Origin: a virus
Virus record (IMG/VR): IMGVR_UViG_3300020171_000333
Span: 1 to 32,954 of that record
Reading direction: 5' to 3' (one strand)
Length of the DNA: 32,954 nucleotides
Below the pieces are notes generated by a model, which ran no database searches, had not been told where the DNA came from, and saw only the letters and a program-made list of their open reading frames with translations. The position numbers and the translations under genes are program-made. Shown one piece after another: positions 2,325-24,833 of this stretch; positions within the stretch are counted from its first letter, which is position 1, and every line of letters starts with the position of its first letter.

Positions 2325-2369
2325 ACTTCCTAACCTCTTTGAGACTGGTAAAGATTGGACATCTTTATT
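2325..2369 (+). promoter_or_regulatory. Conserved 5' leader element of the adhesin gene (copy A)
   Basis: ACTTCCTAACCTC at 2325-2337 is followed by GAGACTGGTAAA at 2341-2352, then by a perfect 6-bp hairpin (AAAGAT 2350-2355, ATCTTT 2361-2366) ending three bases before the ATG. The same two motifs in the same order, plus a terminal small hairpin, precede the major capsid gene at 32473-32522. Neither leader has a Shine-Dalgarno. Seen: the repeated motifs. Inferred: an RNA element controlling translation or stability of abundant virion proteins. Confidence 0.6.
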
Positions 2370-3887
2370 ATGTCTACAATAAAAGTTTTAGTAGTAGCAG
2401 GAGGTGGTAGCGGTGGAGCTTCTCTGGCTGGAGGTGGTGGTGCAGGAGGCGTTATCTATGATGCCGCCTATTCTGTTTCTGCTGGGGAATATACAGTCAC
2501 TGTTGGAGCTGGTGGGACTGGCCCTGCAAGTTCTGGGACTGGTGACAACGGAGATAACTCTGTATTTAATGATCAGACTGCTGTTGGAGGTGGATACGGA
2601 AGAAGTCATGGCAGTGGTGGGGCAATGGCTGGAACTGCCGGGGGATCTGGGGGTGGAGGTAACTATGATGGGACGGGATACGATGGAACTGCTGGGCAGG
2701 GAAATGCTGGAGGAGGTCAAGCTTCCGAGCAAGGAGGATCTGGAGGTGGCGGTGCGGGAGCGGCAGGAGAAACAAAGCCAGAAGGAGCAGGAGGAGATGG
2801 CGGAGTGGGAGTTTCGAACTCGATCACTGGTTCAGCAGTTTATTATGCTGGTGGGGGTGGAGGGGCAGATGATAACGAACTTGGTGGAGAAGGTGGAAAC
2901 GGTGGTGGTGGACATGGGAGCACTGGCGGAGATGGTGGGAATGGAACTGCGAATACTGGTGGCGGCGGAGGCGGTGGTTGGGCGTACGAAGGGTACTATG
3001 CGGGGAGTGGTGGATCGGGAGTTGTCATTGTCAGTTACGTCACAGCGAACTTTGGGGAGAATTTCTCTGATGGTGTTGAGAATACAGACTATACGAAGAC
3101 CACAGATGGTGCAAATACAGTCTTCAAGTGGATCACGACTGGAAACCACACATTCACAATTGTAGATAAAAGCTCTGCGAGTGCATCACCGTCAGTTTCT
3201 ATCAGCGCAACACCGTCTTCTAGCGCATCTACGTCTGTCTCTGCTACGCCCTCATCTTCGGAATCAGCATCTTCGTCGGTGTCTGCGTCATTATCGATCT
3301 CGTTATCTCCATCAATTTCGGAATCATCTAGTAAATCTATTACTGGTTCTGCAACTCCATCTATTTCTGTATCTGCTTCAGTCTCTGCAAGTTCGTCTAT
3401 CTCTCTTTCTCCTTCCGTTAGCCAAAGTGTAAGTATTTCGCTATCTCCAAGCATTTCTGAGTCAGTATCTCAATCAGTTTCTATCAGTCTTTCTCCGTCA
3501 GTTTTCATTAGTAGCTCACCATCAGTCAGCGCGTCAGTCTCAGCTTCAGTTAGCATCAGTATTTCTCCATCTGCTTCGATAAGCCTTTCTCCCTCTATTT
3601 CAGAAAGTTTATCTCCTTCAATATCGGCATCGGTTTCTGCTTCATTGTCTATTAGTGTCTCTCCATCAATTTCAGTAAGCAAAAGTCCGTCTATCAGCGC
3701 GTCTGTTTCAGTCTCATTGTCACCAAGTTCTAGCGTCAGTCCTTCTCCATCTCCTGCAGTTTGGGAAGACAAATATGCAGTCAGAGGTAATTCGTGGAGT
3801 GATAAATATTCTGCAAGGGGGAATACATGGTCAGATAAGTATTCAGTCAGAGGTAATTCGTGGACGAATAAATATAGAGAATGGTAG
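2370..3887 (+). CDS. Glycine-rich/serine-rich virion adhesin (receptor-binding protein)
   Basis: A 505-residue low-complexity protein in three parts. Residues 1 to about 225 are a Gly-rich domain with many GGGG runs, a VTVGAGG motif and an ending GSGGSGVVIVSYV, typical of phage glycine-rich tip adhesins. After a short linker, roughly residues 265-465 are a Ser tract built of S-x-S and S-P-S units with Val, Ile and Ala. The last 40 residues are tandem 11-residue repeats of the form W-S-D-K-Y-x-x-R-G-N-S. The ATG at 2370 is chosen over an in-frame TTG at 2355 because 2355 lies inside the leader hairpin and the capsid gene sharing this leader starts at the matching place, also Met-Ser. It probably sits at a fibre tip; sugar genes lie directly upstream. 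Confidence 0.7.
   Translation: MSTIKVLVVAGGGSGGASLAGGGGAGGVIYDAAYSVSAGEYTVTVGAGGTGPASSGTGDNGDNSVFNDQTAVGGGYGRSHGSGGAMAGTAGGSGGGGNYDGTGYDGTAGQGNAGGGQASEQGGSGGGGAGAAGETKPEGAGGDGGVGVSNSITGSAVYYAGGGGGADDNELGGEGGNGGGGHGSTGGDGGNGTANTGGGGGGGWAYEGYYAGSGGSGVVIVSYVTANFGENFSDGVENTDYTKTTDGANTVFKWITTGNHTFTIVDKSSASASPSVSISATPSSSASTSVSATPSSSESASSSVSASLSISLSPSISESSSKSITGSATPSISVSASVSASSSISLSPSVSQSVSISLSPSISESVSQSVSISLSPSVFISSSPSVSASVSASVSISISPSASISLSPSISESLSPSISASVSASLSISVSPSISVSKSPSISASVSVSLSPSSSVSPSPSPAVWEDKYAVRGNSWSDKYSARGNTWSDKYSVRGNSWTNKYREW
3769..3885 (+). repeat. Tandem 33-bp coding repeats (11-residue WSDKY-RGN unit)
   Basis: Three full units and a partial fourth at the adhesin C-terminus: WEDKYAVRGNS, WSDKYSARGNT, WSDKYSVRGNS, WTNKY. 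The first and third share an almost identical DNA stretch (CAGTCAGAGGTAATTCGTGG). Aromatic, Lys and Arg spacing is strict, unlike the loose Ser tract before it, so this is probably a folded or binding tail. Confidence 0.75.
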
Positions 3888-3902
3888 CGTATAATTAAAT
3901 TA
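3883..3902 (+). promoter_or_regulatory. Promoter -10 element, copy 2 of the 20-bp repeat
   Basis: Identical to the 20 bases at 2297-2316, with TATAAT at 3890-3895. Here the -10 is followed after six bases by an ATG at 3902, so the transcript start would fall on or next to a start codon (leaderless). It also serves the Ser-rich tail protein gene that starts at 3999. Confidence 0.6.
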
Positions 3903-4012
3903 TGATTTACGAGAGGACGGAAGAAATCAATGAGAAATGTCATAAAACAACCGAAACTTATGGAAATAGAGTAGAATTTATTAAAAGAAAGGAGCAATAT
4001 GCCTATTTATGA
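3902..4012 (+). CDS. Possible small protein, 36 residues
   Basis: An open frame reading MIYERTEEINEKC... to a TGA at 4010-4012, inside the next gene's start region. It is charged and helical-looking with no membrane segment, and I do not recognise it. Support is positional: its ATG lies exactly six bases after the -10 of the repeated promoter, and without it a 111-base untranslated leader would remain. Its 3' end carries the AAGGAG that serves the gene at 3999, so it could act as a coupling leader peptide. It may equally be a chance frame. Confidence 0.35.
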   Translation: MIYERTEEINEKCHKTTETYGNRVEFIKRKEQYAYL

Positions 4013-5600
4013 AATTTCCGGTTTTTCTGGAGGGATTTCTGATTTTGCTGATCGCGGAATAAAGAATAGTTTCAAGTTTGGTGCCAACTTATCAATCAGG
4101 AAAGCCGTCGATAGCCTCACTTGCCAACAGACTTTAAAGGAAGAAGGGGAGTTTGATAGTCATTCTCCTTCCCTTTCGGTCTCTCCTTCCGCTACGGGGA
4201 GTGCTAGCCCCTCTGTATCTGCGAGCAAAAGTTCCAGTCCCACGCCAAGTCCATCATCTTCCGTTTCTCCTTCTCCGAGTCCCACACCATCAGTTTCTAA
4301 GAGTGCATCGCCATCTGTCTCTGTCAGTTCTTCAGTCAGTCTTTCTCCATCCCCAAGCTCAGGGTTTACAACTATATTCGAGGGATTGATCCGTACGTTT
4401 GTGAAAGCAAGCGATGGGTATACATACGGGTTCGATAATACTGGATGTATCTATCGAAGAGACTCTGCTGGTTACTGGCAAAAGGTATACGATGATCCAG
4501 ATGGAGAGATAAAAGGGGCTGAAGAGAAGCCATCATCTACTGGCAAGCGATGGTTGTTTTGGGCAACAGATAGAAAGCTCAAGAGAAAAGATTTAGATTT
4601 AGATTGGACAGAAGCCAATGTAGAAACTTTCGCACAGAATTTAGAATCCTGCGATTGGCACACTATGAGACAGGTGGCTGGATCATTAATGATCGCTAAC
4701 AAAGAATATCTAGCAATGGTGGGATATGACGACTCGTACACTAACGAAGCTCTTGATCTAATCCCCGGAAATACTGCAAAGACATTGGTGGAACGAAATG
4801 GGCGCGTGATTACTGGTACAGTCCTCACTGGTGATCCGACGGTGGGAATCAATGGAGCGGTAGATGCGGAATATCCCCTAGCTCAGGTAGGAACTGACGG
4901 AGATATCTATTACTCCGATATGTCAAGTTCTATCCCCGTGAAGAGATTCCCGGGGGGCGGTCAGGTAAACCCCGGTGGCGTCTGCAACGAGGTAGAACAG
5001 ATAAACTTCTTCGAATGGGATCAAAACGCTCTTTCATGGATTGATAAACAATCAGTCGGCAATATGGCGTTATTCGCAGTCTATAGTGCAGATACAGGGT
5101 ATGACGGTATCTACAGTTATGGAAGAAAAAACAAAAATAAACCATTTGCTCTGAACTTGGATTATGCGATTGATGGGATTGAAGAACTGGGGGCGATTAC
5201 TAGCGTTAGTGGAACTATTTTAGTAAGTTATCGGGACGGACCAGAATTTGGAGTAAAAGCGGTCGATTCAACAACAAAAGCCACAGCAACGTATTACGGA
5301 CTGGACTTTAGAGCGCCAGTTAAGAAACCGACTAATATCACGAACTGGAAGTATGCGGAGGTCTTCTGCAGTCCACTTCCTGCTGGCACATCGATACAGT
5401 TCAAGTATAAGTTGAACAAGAGTAGTTCATTCACATCAGCCATGATGGAGAATGGATCTACAACCTTTACGGCTTCCGGTGAGAAACGAGCAGTCTTCTT
5501 AATCGGAGAAGAAGCAGAGATATTCGAACCACAGGTTGTTCTCACCCCAACAGGAAATACCAGTGCAGAGGTACATCGCGTGAGAGTTTATTTCGACTAA
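3999..5600 (+). CDS. Tail structural protein with internal Ser-rich linker
   Basis: A 533-residue protein. The first 50 residues (MPIYEISGFSGGISDFADRG...) end in IRKAVDSLTCQQTLKEEG, like the N-terminus of phage tail-tube/hub proteins that anchor a beta-propeller. Residues 52 to about 122 are a Ser/Pro/Val tract like that of the adhesin upstream. The rest is beta-rich with repeated aromatic and Gly turns (YTYGFDNTGCIYRRD, DGDIYYSDMSS, YDGIYSYGRKN), suggesting propeller-like blades. The strong AAAGGAG before the ATG fixes the start. Podovirus tail-tubular B-like function is an inference from architecture and neighbours, not from a clear family motif. The Ser tract looks inserted between anchor and propeller. 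Confidence 0.55.
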   Translation: MPIYEISGFSGGISDFADRGIKNSFKFGANLSIRKAVDSLTCQQTLKEEGEFDSHSPSLSVSPSATGSASPSVSASKSSSPTPSPSSSVSPSPSPTPSVSKSASPSVSVSSSVSLSPSPSSGFTTIFEGLIRTFVKASDGYTYGFDNTGCIYRRDSAGYWQKVYDDPDGEIKGAEEKPSSTGKRWLFWATDRKLKRKDLDLDWTEANVETFAQNLESCDWHTMRQVAGSLMIANKEYLAMVGYDDSYTNEALDLIPGNTAKTLVERNGRVITGTVLTGDPTVGINGAVDAEYPLAQVGTDGDIYYSDMSSSIPVKRFPGGGQVNPGGVCNEVEQINFFEWDQNALSWIDKQSVGNMALFAVYSADTGYDGIYSYGRKNKNKPFALNLDYAIDGIEELGAITSVSGTILVSYRDGPEFGVKAVDSTTKATATYYGLDFRAPVKKPTNITNWKYAEVFCSPLPAGTSIQFKYKLNKSSSFTSAMMENGSTTFTASGEKRAVFLIGEEAEIFEPQVVLTPTGNTSAEVHRVRVYFD

Positions 5601-7996: not shown

Positions 7997-8004
7997 AACT
8001 TTAT

Positions 8005-8712
8005 ATGGATACGCTTGACGACCTCATTATTGCTTTACGATCCGATCTTAACATAACTTCCAGTAGCTCACTATATCCAACTGCAACACTAGAATTGGCA
8101 ATCAATCGGGCATATATCAAGGCAAGTAGGCTATTCAGATGGCCGCAATTGGAGGATGCCAAGAGAACTACCAGTCAATTAAATATCGAATACTATGATA
8201 TGCCGGAGACATGGAGTCCTAATTCAATGTGGAGACTGGAAGTAAACGCAGTGCAGTACGGAGAAGACCCGGATGGTAGTCCAATGTCTTATGAAGATTA
8301 CACACAATGGAGAGCAGACACTGACAATGCGGCCAGCACTGATGAGAAGTGGGCGCAACAGTGGCTCCGCTTCTTCTTCTGGCCACTTCCAACTGCAGGG
8401 CTAACAATTGACGCGTGGGGGCAGAAGAATGTTACAGCATTGTCTAGTGGGACAGACGACACGATCTTCAGTCATAACATGCCGGAGTGTAACGAGGCGT
8501 TGGTTCTTGAAGCATCGGCAATTTTAAAGAAAAAAGGTGAGGATGATAAAAAGGGAGTAATGTTTAGTGACGAGTCTAAGCAGATATTAGCGGTATCTTT
8601 TGGCAAACTAAAGCAGGAAAAAGCCAAATTTGAAAAAACACAACCGTTCTTCCATGTTGATGATATGTTTGGACACTCGGCGACATCAGACATTATAGGG
8701 AATTTTAGCTAA
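8005..8712 (+). CDS. Head-tail adaptor / tail tubular A-like protein
   Basis: 235 residues. The N-terminus (TLDDLIIALRSDLNI...LYPTATLELAINRAYIKASRLFRWPQLE) is the helical opening usual for gp6-like and podovirus tail-tubular A/adaptor proteins. A Trp-rich beta middle follows (TWSPNSMWRLEVN, WLRFFFWPLPTAGLTI), then a long C-terminal helix with many Lys. Adaptors of this kind sit under the portal and dock the tail. Neighbouring internal-protein genes fit that order. There is no Shine-Dalgarno; a -10 eight bases upstream suggests a separate leaderless start. Confidence 0.6.
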   Translation: MDTLDDLIIALRSDLNITSSSSLYPTATLELAINRAYIKASRLFRWPQLEDAKRTTSQLNIEYYDMPETWSPNSMWRLEVNAVQYGEDPDGSPMSYEDYTQWRADTDNAASTDEKWAQQWLRFFFWPLPTAGLTIDAWGQKNVTALSSGTDDTIFSHNMPECNEALVLEASAILKKKGEDDKKGVMFSDESKQILAVSFGKLKQEKAKFEKTQPFFHVDDMFGHSATSDIIGNFS

Positions 8713-21171: not shown

Positions 21172-21642
21172 ATGAAACTAATTAAGTACCATAGAACCAC
21201 TATTGAGTGCTGGAAGTCACAGGCATGGACAATATTATTCGGGCTACTGTGCTTTATCTTGGGTATCTTGTTCTATAAGTGGATGAATACACCAGTCAAT
21301 GAGATGATTAGTCCATTAGGAGATGTAAGCCAAATTCAGGTTTACGCTAACAACCCCATCGAAGATGTAAGGGCAGATGCAGAGAAGGCCATTGAGGTGT
21401 GGTTTGAAGAAGAAGATTGGGCTTGGGCGAAGCGAGTTAGTTTTTGTGAATCTTCATGGAATCCGAAAGCCGCAAGCAAGATATCTAGCGCAAAAGGGCT
21501 TTTTCAAATAATTTCTGGAACGCAAAAAATGATAGAACGTAATGTCGGAAAGACTTACGACCCTTACAATGCTTGGGATAACGCCGAGATGGCTAGTTGG
21601 CTTTTTTACAATATCGGGGCAAGTCAATGGGAGTGCAAATGA
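21172..21642 (+). CDS. Membrane-anchored lytic transglycosylase
   Basis: 156 residues from the ATG at 21172 with GGAAGGAA upstream. One transmembrane segment near residues 19-38 (WTILFGLLCFILGILFYKW) anchors it with the enzyme outside. The SLT domain has catalytic Glu93 in SFCESSWNPKAAS and SAKGLFQIISGTQ, then YDPYNAWDNAEMASWLF. It is distinct from the SLT domain of the internal virion protein at 11664. It lies in the early block, far from holin and endolysin, so it may remodel the wall early or act in superinfection control rather than in final lysis. The pentapeptide-like gene follows closely. Confidence 0.75.
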   Translation: MKLIKYHRTTIECWKSQAWTILFGLLCFILGILFYKWMNTPVNEMISPLGDVSQIQVYANNPIEDVRADAEKAIEVWFEEEDWAWAKRVSFCESSWNPKAASKISSAKGLFQIISGTQKMIERNVGKTYDPYNAWDNAEMASWLFYNIGASQWECK

Positions 21643-21656
21643 AGGAGGTGAAAAAT

Positions 21657-22313
21657 ATGTCAGATAAAAAAGGAAATACAGGGATAGAGAATACAGGCGA
21701 AAAGAATTCTGGGGACTGGAATTCTGGGTACGGGAATTCTGGGTACGGGAATTCTGGGTACAGGAATTCTGGGGACGGGAATTCTGGGGACAGGAATTCT
21801 GGGTACAGGAATTCTGGGGACGGGAATTCTGGGTACGGGAATTCTGGGGACAGGAATTCTGGGGACTGGAATTCTGGGGACGGGAATTCTGGGTACGGGA
21901 ATTCGTCTGATAGATCATCTGGAATTTTTTGTTCAGAAGGGGGAACAGTTAGAATTTTCAATCAAGATAGCGGTAAAAAATGGGACGAGATAGATCACCC
22001 AGGTTTCGAAGAGTTTTGGTTGAATAAGTGGATCGAGGGAGAGAATATGACCGAGGAAGAGAAGAAAGCCGATCCCGAGTTTTATGTTCGGGGCGGATAT
22101 CTCAAAACCTATAGTTGGGAAGAAGCATGGGCTAACTTTTGGAAAGATACTACCGAAGAGAATCGCCAGAAGGTTCTTAATCTACCCAATTTCGATGCGA
22201 AGATTTTTAAGGAGATCACCGGAATTGATGTAGACGTAGAAGAGAAAGACGATAAGACAAAGGAAGCGATGAGGCTATTGAAGGAAAAGGGCTATCGAAT
22301 AGTTAAAGATTGA
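21657..22313 (+). CDS. Pentapeptide-like repeat protein of phage family
   Basis: 218 residues from the ATG at 21657, with a consensus AAGGAGGTG upstream. Residues 17-83 are about 13 copies of N-S-G-[DY]-[GRW], a degenerate pentapeptide-type solenoid. The C-terminal part (VRIFNQDSGKKWDEIDHPGFEEFWLNKWIEG ... GGYLKTYSWEEAWANFW ... LPNFDAKIFKEITGIDV) resembles a conserved domain that I recall following such repeats in other phage hypothetical proteins. Function is unknown; the solenoid could mimic a surface or bind a partner. The repeat DNA is nearly perfect. Confidence 0.7.
   Translation: MSDKKGNTGIENTGEKNSGDWNSGYGNSGYGNSGYRNSGDGNSGDRNSGYRNSGDGNSGYGNSGDRNSGDWNSGDGNSGYGNSSDRSSGIFCSEGGTVRIFNQDSGKKWDEIDHPGFEEFWLNKWIEGENMTEEEKKADPEFYVRGGYLKTYSWEEAWANFWKDTTEENRQKVLNLPNFDAKIFKEITGIDVDVEEKDDKTKEAMRLLKEKGYRIVKD
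21704..21904 (+). repeat. 15-bp tandem repeat with 14 GAATTC sites
   Basis: Thirteen units of GAATTCTGGGKACNG type in phase with the codon frame, each giving N-S-G-D/Y-x and each containing an EcoRI site, plus a final GAATTC. Third-base and second-base changes are confined to two positions per unit, indicating recent expansion or active homogenisation. Confidence 0.9.
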
Positions 22314-23070: not shown

Positions 23071-23475
23071 ATGACTAACTCAAAGAAAGCACCAGTCCAG
23101 GGGTGGGAGAAGATAGAATGTACATTTTGTAACGGGGATGGATTTACAGCCGAGCATTCGGGAGATATTTCTTGTGATGATGGGGAACACATGAATTGTC
23201 CTTTACAAGTCCAATGTAATGATTGCCACGGTGAAGGAGTATATATGACGCTTGATACTGTCCGCCAAACCCTCGCCGCCGAGAGGAAAAGATGGGTGGA
23301 GGAGATAAGGGGAATGAAGAAAGAATACAAACATCATTTTAATGTTGAGGGGTATGTAAACTGTTTGTTTTGCGGGAAAAAGATAAAAAACAATAAACCT
23401 AATTGTGAGCCTAACAGTGAATATAACCGAGCAATACGCGACATCCTCTCCAAACTAGAAAGAGGTGGGGAATGA
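23071..23475 (+). CDS. Zinc-finger protein, mosaic paralogue 1
   Basis: 134 residues. The N-terminal NSKKAPVQGWEK and C-terminal TLAAERKRWVEEIRGM ... ILSKLERGGE are shared almost word for word with the protein at 23687, while the middle differs. Here the middle has a DnaJ-like zinc knuckle (CTFCNGDGF ... CNDCHGEG), and a second CLFCGKK lies before the C-terminal helix. The shared ends are also near-identical in DNA. Function unknown; it looks like a modular adaptor. Confidence 0.65.
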   Translation: MTNSKKAPVQGWEKIECTFCNGDGFTAEHSGDISCDDGEHMNCPLQVQCNDCHGEGVYMTLDTVRQTLAAERKRWVEEIRGMKKEYKHHFNVEGYVNCLFCGKKIKNNKPNCEPNSEYNRAIRDILSKLERGGE

Positions 23476-23690
23476 AATCTAACTCAAAGAAAACATCTAC
23501 CAAAAAGATAGAGCTAACACCAACGCAAGCATTCCAGTTGCAAGCGGACGGCTTTCACAGGCTGGCTGAAACCATCAACCAAAATTTCGAGTTGTGGGGG
23601 AAGATCAAGGACGCGGTTATGTTTTTGTTAGCGGTACAGATATTTTATTTAGTATTTTTCGCTATTATATTTTGGAGGTATGTAAAATGA
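23472..23690 (+). CDS. Small membrane protein
   Basis: 72 residues with an ATGA start and GGTGGGGA upstream. The N-terminal 45 residues are polar and helical (SNSKKTSTKKIELTPTQAFQLQ), then one transmembrane segment near 49-68 (AVMFLLAVQIFYLVFFAIIFW), with RYVK at the end. It begins with the same Asn-Ser-Lys-Lys motif as the two mosaic paralogues on either side. A role in the envelope is likely but unknown. Confidence 0.6.
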   Translation: MKSNSKKTSTKKIELTPTQAFQLQADGFHRLAETINQNFELWGKIKDAVMFLLAVQIFYLVFFAIIFWRYVK

Positions 23691-23989
23691 ACTCAAAGAA
23701 AGCACCAGTCCAGGGGTGGGAGAAGCCATGCGATATGGGCTATCGACCGGGAGATGCAATTCGCGCCCAACTACTGAAAGAGGCTGGGCTTAATTTAGAA
23801 CAATATCGGAGGGCTTGTTTATCAGTAGAGGAGTTTATCGATACACTCGCCGCCGAGCGAAAAAGGTGGGCGGAGGAGATAAGGGGAATGGCAAGAGACC
23901 ATTATTGGGATAGCTTGTCGGAAGATAGCGGATTGATTATTAAACACATAGATGGCATCCTCTCCAAACTAGAAAGAGGTGGGGAATGA
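23687..23989 (+). CDS. Mosaic paralogue 2, no zinc knuckle
   Basis: 100 residues from the ATG at 23687 (ATGA overlap). It starts MNSKKAPVQGWEKP and ends TLAAERKRWAEEIRGM ... ILSKLERGGE, as the protein at 23071 does. The middle is instead CDMGYRPGDAIRAQLLKEAGLNLEQYRRACLS, resembling the short helical segment of a peptidase- or antitoxin-type protein (an R-P-G-D-x-I-R-x-x-L-x-E-x-G pattern, as seen in HigA-like starts). Same ends with a swapped centre suggest recombination between paralogues. Confidence 0.6.
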   Translation: MNSKKAPVQGWEKPCDMGYRPGDAIRAQLLKEAGLNLEQYRRACLSVEEFIDTLAAERKRWAEEIRGMARDHYWDSLSEDSGLIIKHIDGILSKLERGGE

Positions 23990-24150
23990 AATTCTGTATT
24001 AAATGCGGCGGGCAATTGGAAGACGTCTTTGGTGGCGAAACAGTGTTCACTTATTGCTACGATAGAAATTGCTCTAGGTATGGTTTAGTGACTATTGTAG
24101 AAAATCAAAAGCCAGAAAAGAAAAGAGCTAAAATAAAGAAAGGAGGATAA
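23986..24150 (+). CDS. Small zinc-ribbon protein, 54 residues
   Basis: Starts MKFCIKCGGQLEDVFGG with an ATGA overlap. Cys4 and Cys7, then YCYDRNCSRYG supply a zinc ribbon; the tail is Lys-rich (KPEKKRAKIKKGG). The final codons AAAGGAGGATAA are the ribosome site for the next gene, so the two are coupled. Similar in layout to the 52-residue protein at 22375. Confidence 0.6.
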   Translation: MKFCIKCGGQLEDVFGGETVFTYCYDRNCSRYGLVTIVENQKPEKKRAKIKKGG

Positions 24151-24154
24151 AAAT

Positions 24155-24343
24155 ATGTCAACTTTACAATATGTTCAACCAACAGATGAACAAAAAGTGG
24201 TAATGCAATCTTTTAGAGATAAGTTCGAAGCATTATTCAACGATCTTAAAGCATTGCCAGCTAGTCGTGGTATGTCTTTGGCTTTAACAAAGCTAGAAGA
24301 GAGTGCAATGTGGCTTAACAAAGCTATCACTAAAAACGATTAG
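24155..24343 (+). CDS. Putative Acb2/Tad1-like anti-defence protein (cyclic-nucleotide sponge)
   Basis: 62 residues with a very strong AAAGGAGG upstream. The C-terminal half, PASRGMSLALTKLEESAMWLNKAI, closely follows the signature I recall for the Acb2/Tad1 hairpin family (P-x-S-R-x-x-S-L-A-L-T-K-L-E-E-A-x-M-W-x-N-K-A-I). The N-terminal helix (TDEQKVVMQSFRDKFEALFNDLK) fits too. Acb2 sequesters CBASS cyclic oligonucleotides, and Tad1 binds Thoeris cyclic ADP-ribose signals; both are small, abundant oligomers. It is the last gene of the early block and is followed by a strong hairpin, consistent with high stable expression. Ligand is not predictable. Family call is from motif only. Confidence 0.6.
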   Translation: MSTLQYVQPTDEQKVVMQSFRDKFEALFNDLKALPASRGMSLALTKLEESAMWLNKAITKND

Positions 24344-24350
24344 TATTTTG

Positions 24351-24373
24351 TTGGCAGGGAGTATCCCTGCCAA
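24351..24373 (+). terminator. Perfect 10-bp hairpin after the Acb2-like gene
   Basis: TTGGCAGGGA, loop GTA, TCCCTGCCAA: ten uninterrupted pairs beginning eight bases after the stop codon. The downstream sequence GATAATATT is not a proper T-run, so it may end transcription weakly or protect the mRNA 3' end. Confidence 0.55.
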
Positions 24374-24417
24374 GATAATATTAAATAGATCGGATTGAAT
24401 GTTTAGGCACATTAAAA

Positions 24418-24565
24418 ACTTAATTGATCGGTGGGATGGCGAAAGAGAGACGCAGGTAGTACGGTTAAAGTAGGCCCTCTAGCTAATGACTATCCGTAGC
24501 CGCCCTTGATTCGCCTGTCCGGGGCGTGCAAGTTGAAATGGCTTGCTCCCACCGACCAGTTAAGT
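24418..24565 (+). ncRNA. Candidate structured non-coding RNA B
   Basis: A closing helix of 19 positions: ACTTAATTG-A-TCGGTGGGA (24418-24436) with TCCCACCGA-C-CAGTTAAGT (24547-24565), with one A-C mismatch and one G-U. Inside: TACGG 24460-24464 with CCGTA 24494-24498, extended past a five-base bulge by GTAG 24470-24473 with CTAT 24490-24493; CGCCC 24501-24505 with GGGCG 24522-24526; GCAAG 24528-24532 with CTTGC 24542-24546, stacked on the closing helix; and GGCGAA 24438-24443 able to pair with TTCGCC 24510-24515 in a hairpin loop (pseudoknot). No coding frame covers it. It matches no RNA class I can recognise. It lies between the anti-defence-like gene and the terminase genes. Confidence 0.65.
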
Positions 24566-24582
24566 ACCTTAAAATAGATCAT

Positions 24583-24652
24583 CCCTCCGAATCGGAGGGT
24601 CATAAAGACCGCTGTGGATGGAGACTAGGGCTTTCCTGGGCTGGCCACAGCG
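24583..24652 (+). other. Two further hairpins before the 55-residue gene
   Basis: CCCTCCG-AAT-CGGAGGG (24583-24599) is a perfect 7-bp hairpin. CGCTGTGG (24610-24617) with CCACAGCG (24645-24652) is a perfect 8-bp stem enclosing a weaker CTAGG/CCTGG stem. The second stem ends 13 bases before the ATG at 24666. Possible packaging-site, terminator or leader structures. Confidence 0.5.
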
Positions 24653-24665
24653 ATCCTTGCGATTT

Positions 24666-24833
24666 ATGGAACAAAATAAACGACTTTATCGTGAAATAAC
24701 CGTTGTCGAGTCATACACTAAAGATAAAAATGGGGTGGTGCATTGGCATTTGTTATTCCCCAACGGAGAGGAATGGATAAGACCCACGCCGTATACTGAG
24801 CTACCTTGGGTTGAGGTTAAGAGGAAATCTTAG
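24666..24833 (+). CDS. Small hypothetical protein
   Basis: 55 residues from the ATG at 24666; a longer in-frame start at 24618 lies inside the hairpin region and is unlikely. MEQNKRLYREITVVESYTKD, then GVVHWHLLFPNGEEWIRPTPYTELPWVEV: a compact beta-rich protein with several Trp, of unknown family. No Shine-Dalgarno; it follows the hairpins directly. Confidence 0.5.
   Translation: MEQNKRLYREITVVESYTKDKNGVVHWHLLFPNGEEWIRPTPYTELPWVEVKRKS

Follow-up and report, generated by a model that had tools for sequence, protein, structure and literature searches.

The window analyzed here is an entire IMG/VR virus record, 32,954 bases long, in which terminase genes are present. On the plus strand, at positions 24155–24343, it contains an acb2-like gene that runs from an ATG start codon to a TAG stop codon and encodes a protein of 62 residues, with a PF24729 hairpin domain at residues 6–60. 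The reading frame is intact, and the sequence quoted in the original prediction, PASRGMSLALTKLEESAMWLNKAI, is identical to residues 35–58 of the product. Upstream of the ATG the frame is open for only six codons, giving a total open frame of 68 residues. A Shine-Dalgarno sequence, AAGGAGG, can be read directly at 24140–24146 (+), 8 nucleotides 5' of the ATG, where a very strong ribosome site had been predicted. The stop codon is adjoined by a hairpin at 24344–24380 (+), with a 17-bp stem and a 3-nucleotide loop; its arms (24344–24360 and 24364–24380) are 88% complementary. The hairpin that had been proposed after the gene is therefore present and strong, but it carries no T-run and was not called as a terminator in a terminator scan. 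Both the Shine-Dalgarno sequence and the hairpin after the stop codon would be compatible with a high level of expression. The open reading frame is not a chance occurrence, because it matches a Pfam family with an E-value of 1.1e-14, has viral relatives of up to 85% identity and shows a dN/dS ratio of about 0.1.

Directly 3' of the acb2-like gene, positions 24344–24680 form a noncoding region of about 320 nucleotides that folds strongly (z-score of −4.95 against shuffled sequences, with none of 100 shuffles as good). Its core (24418–24565) has a z-score of −4.05 when taken as 24410–24570 and is closed by a 19-nucleotide stem of 89% complementarity. The region has no matching family in Rfam, BLAST against phages and E. 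coli genomes gave no match, and the closest acb2-bearing viruses lack it. Pattern scans left one common block, the 27-nucleotide AGC(C/A)GCCCTTGATTCGCCTGTCCGGGG, which is shared (26 of 27 positions identical) with positions 192–218 on the minus strand of record L202, where it sits between tRNA-Ser and tRNA-Cys genes. Three further pattern matches (L203, L204 and L205) fall within coding frames and were attributed to chance, and an nhmmer search on the stretches from one pattern scan gave nothing similar to the region. By eye, pairing is possible between the conserved loop UUCGCC and a sequence upstream of it, GGCGAA in the window or GGC(A)GAA in L202, so that a pseudoknot is possible in both copies. 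PF24729 had no match in the L202 record, in a search that left the control sequences unmatched as well. Since the closest acb2-bearing viruses do not have the region and PF24729 found no match in L202, the region is, as far as can be seen, unrelated to acb2; it may be a novel structured RNA.

Several other reading frames in the window have unusual features. The proteins encoded at 23071–23475 and approximately 23688–23989 have a common N-terminal segment, NSKKAPVQGWEK, and common C-terminal segments (AAERKRW.EEIRGM ... ILSKLERGGE), whereas their middle parts diverge; this has the appearance of a local duplication with replacement. In a protein encoded at 21597–22313, NSG(D/Y)x pentapeptide-like repeats follow one another over a long stretch. 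Positions 456–2301, at the edge of the record, hold an aminotransferase-like and a sugar-nucleotide reductase-like open reading frame, recognized by eye only, which are possible glycan modification genes. Two open reading frames at 2355–5600 contain long low-complexity stretches rich in Ser, Pro and Val (SPSVSAS).

Acb2 and Tad1 sponges take up the small nucleotides with which bacteria signal alarm and trigger anti-phage defenses. The prediction that the 62-residue protein belongs to this family was borne out by an HMM search, in which it scored 54.8 bits against the Pfam entry PF24729 (Acb2/Tad1, hairpin domain), double the curated cut-off of 27. The match spans positions 2–58 of the 58 in the profile. 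As positive controls, the Acb2 proteins of T4 and PaP2/PaMx33 scored 71.4 and 66.5 bits, respectively. A single-sequence phmmer search of the PDB gave nothing significant. When a family profile built from the window protein together with 14 relatives was run against all PDB sequences, it matched "Acb2 homolog 43" (Protein Data Bank code 9ptq) with an E-value of 9.4e-5, as well as Tad1 chains, and T4 Vs.4 weakly (E-value of 0.054). NCBIfam has no model for the protein, and its two PHROG matches (1454 and 15810) are both of unknown function. DUF3549 matched with an E-value of 0.046, which did not reach the cut-off, and was rejected. These results support the assignment of the protein to the Acb2/Tad1 hairpin superfamily.

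The AlphaFold monomer, predicted with the family alignment as input, is a helical hairpin with helices at residues 11–32 and 38–58 and a mean pLDDT of 90.7, and it has the two long antiparallel helices that the PF24729 superfamily requires. A Foldseek search of the PDB placed the T4 Acb2-cGAMP complex first, followed by Tad1 chains at ranks 4–12 and then by apo Acb2 of the PaP2 type. All of the 13 best chains are T4 Acb2, PaP2/PaMx33-type Acb2 or Tad1, in line with the structural resemblance to known sponges that was originally expected. Because the protein is tiny, the E-values are individually weak (the best is 0.18), and it is the ranking that carries weight; generic helical hairpins appear further down the list. 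The protein is a stand-alone hairpin with a short N-terminal element and without a β domain, which is an Acb2-like architecture. The C-terminal half, ASRGMSLALTKLEESAMWLNKAI, does align with the Tad1 hairpin, with Arg-38 and Thr-45 in common, and together with the ranks of the Tad1 chains this would suit a Tad1-like function, in which the protein would chiefly bind a gcADPR isomer produced by the TIR enzyme of a Thoeris system and not a CBASS nucleotide. However, the Tad1 arrangement of an N-terminal β domain followed by a C-terminal hairpin is not found here, and the six open codons upstream of the ATG leave no room for it; in addition, T4 Acb2 ranks ahead of Tad1. The pockets of Tad1 for gcADPR are formed by loops together with the α1 and α2 helices (PMC12043709), which also counts against this function. 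With the β domain absent, a gcADPR role appears distinctly unlikely.

The ligand-binding residues were compared by alignment. In PaMx33 Acb2, Tyr-11 and Lys-26 are reportedly needed for cGAMP binding, and Arg-67 and Thr-74 are said to be linked to a trinucleotide site (Huiting 2023, Cao 2024). These four residues align with Tyr-6, Arg-21, Arg-38 and Thr-45 of the window protein, a correspondence that may serve as a lead to its cGAMP and trinucleotide sites. In T4 Acb2, Tyr-8 and Phe-82 stack on the bases of cGAMP, and Tyr-8, His-11, Lys-23 and Arg-79 form hydrogen bonds or salt bridges with it; Thr-12 is a helix cap, and the mutations Y8A and F82A reduce binding (PMC10097602). According to PMC12657230, T68M in a T4-like phage lowers Acb2 binding. 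Tyr-8, Thr-12 and Thr-68 are identical in the window protein (Tyr-6, Thr-10 and Thr-45), and Lys-23 and Arg-79 are replaced conservatively by Arg-21 and Lys-56, whereas His-11 and Phe-82 are lost, with Pro-9 and Thr-59 in their place. A loss of ligand-pocket residues, named at the outset as evidence against the original prediction, is thus seen at the counterparts of His-11 and Phe-82, while the mapped Tyr, Arg/Lys and Thr positions are kept. Judged by this alignment, the T4 pocket residues whose mutation weakens binding appear to be largely kept.

The loss of Phe-82 and His-11, like the generic hairpins lower in the Foldseek list, would be in keeping with a protein that has lost or changed nucleotide binding and has another small-helical-bundle role in the phage. 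In the same alignment, PaMx33-type Acb2 has Leu and Ala in the columns of these two residues, and it is a proven cGAMP sponge (PMC12043709), so neither residue is required across the family. Among 97 distinct sequences, Thr-45 is conserved in all 97, Arg-38 in 96 and Trp-53 in 94; the column of Arg-21 holds Arg or Lys in 88, and that of Tyr-6 holds Tyr in 75. This conservation across very divergent phages is strongest in the family signature and does not merely follow a hydrophobic core pattern, which makes a loss or change of binding very improbable. The replacement of His-11 and Phe-82 by Pro-9 and Thr-59 could also mean that the 62-residue subfamily is a minimal sponge with a remodeled pocket for a signal other than that of the T4 and PaMx33 proteins; we regard this as unlikely.

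Relatives of the protein are encoded on 171 IMG/VR stretches and, at a lenient E-value limit of 1, in 266 phage records. Against eight close viral relatives the dN/dS ratio is approximately 0.07–0.14 in the pairs where it could be computed, most pairs being close to saturation at synonymous sites, and the gene is kept by purifying selection. A comparison of the sequence fetched around each relative, with several loci incomplete on one side, found that the large terminase is the only other window protein encoded near relatives, in 2 of the 12 nearest (L002 and L013). The low dN/dS ratio and the general lack of another common neighboring gene indicate a selected, mobile gene, which appears to move among largely unrelated viruses. 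One relative of 67% identity, possibly a prophage gene, is located at positions 8001–8183 of a 469-kb Henriciella MAG contig (L082). As a single close relative from a scan of genome contigs, it is not enough to name a host. The terminase of the window gives no host assignment either, since its best phage match, at 46% to Flavobacterium phages, is too distant.

Taken together, the protein is very probably a minimal Acb2-type sponge that sequesters cyclic di- or trinucleotides. A short N-terminal segment carrying Tyr-6, which would stack on the ligand, is predicted to precede the two antiparallel helices (approximately residues 11–32 and 38–58). By homology, the protein probably forms a compact hexamer, and cyclic di- and/or trinucleotides from a CBASS or similar synthase would be bound in the pockets between its subunits. 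Stoichiometric sequestration would lower the free signal, so that the killing effector of the host stays inactive; the hexamer, the ligand and the countered defense are all inferred. Acb2 is characterized as a homohexamer that binds three CDNs, sequesters cyclic oligonucleotides and thereby lets phages grow again on CBASS cells. At the positions of the T4 hexamer interface, Ala-66 is kept (Ala-43), Ala-73 corresponds to Ser-50 and Ala-77 to the bulky Leu-54. The A77I mutation disrupts the T4 Acb2 hexamer (PMC10097602), and Leu-54 suggests some caution about this assembly; PaMx33-type Acb2 has Ile in the same column. The presence of the gene suggests hosts that use nucleotide-signaling defenses (CBASS or similar).

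The Acb2 family, its mechanism and its hexamer have already been published, and the Panoptes system is known to exploit Acb2-type sponges (PMC12657218). What is new here is a very small member, which adds a well conserved Acb2 subfamily that spreads horizontally in uncultivated phages. Its 62 residues offer a compact scaffold for the question of what a minimal sponge needs, the principle itself being established. Tad1 (for example from a Clostridium botulinum prophage, code 7uav) has the C-terminal signature R..[SA]..LT..EE..MW in common with the window protein but is about 125 residues long, with an N-terminal β-sheet domain that the window protein does not have. Acb2 homolog 43, the best sequence match of the family profile in the PDB, is also short (76 residues) and has a solved structure, but its similarity is low outside the REKS..TKLEE segment. 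PaP2/PaMx33 Acb2 (p26, codes 8h2j and 8ixz) shares the PF24729 domain and, like the window protein, is without the Phe-82 and His-11 of T4; at 94 residues, its helices and interhelix loop are longer. T4 Acb2 (Vs.4, code 7uq2), the best structural match in the PDB, has the PF24729 domain and the helical hairpin in common with the window protein, and its Tyr-8, Lys-23, Thr-68 and Arg-79 find counterparts there, whereas its 88 residues include a long interhelix insertion that the window protein dispenses with.
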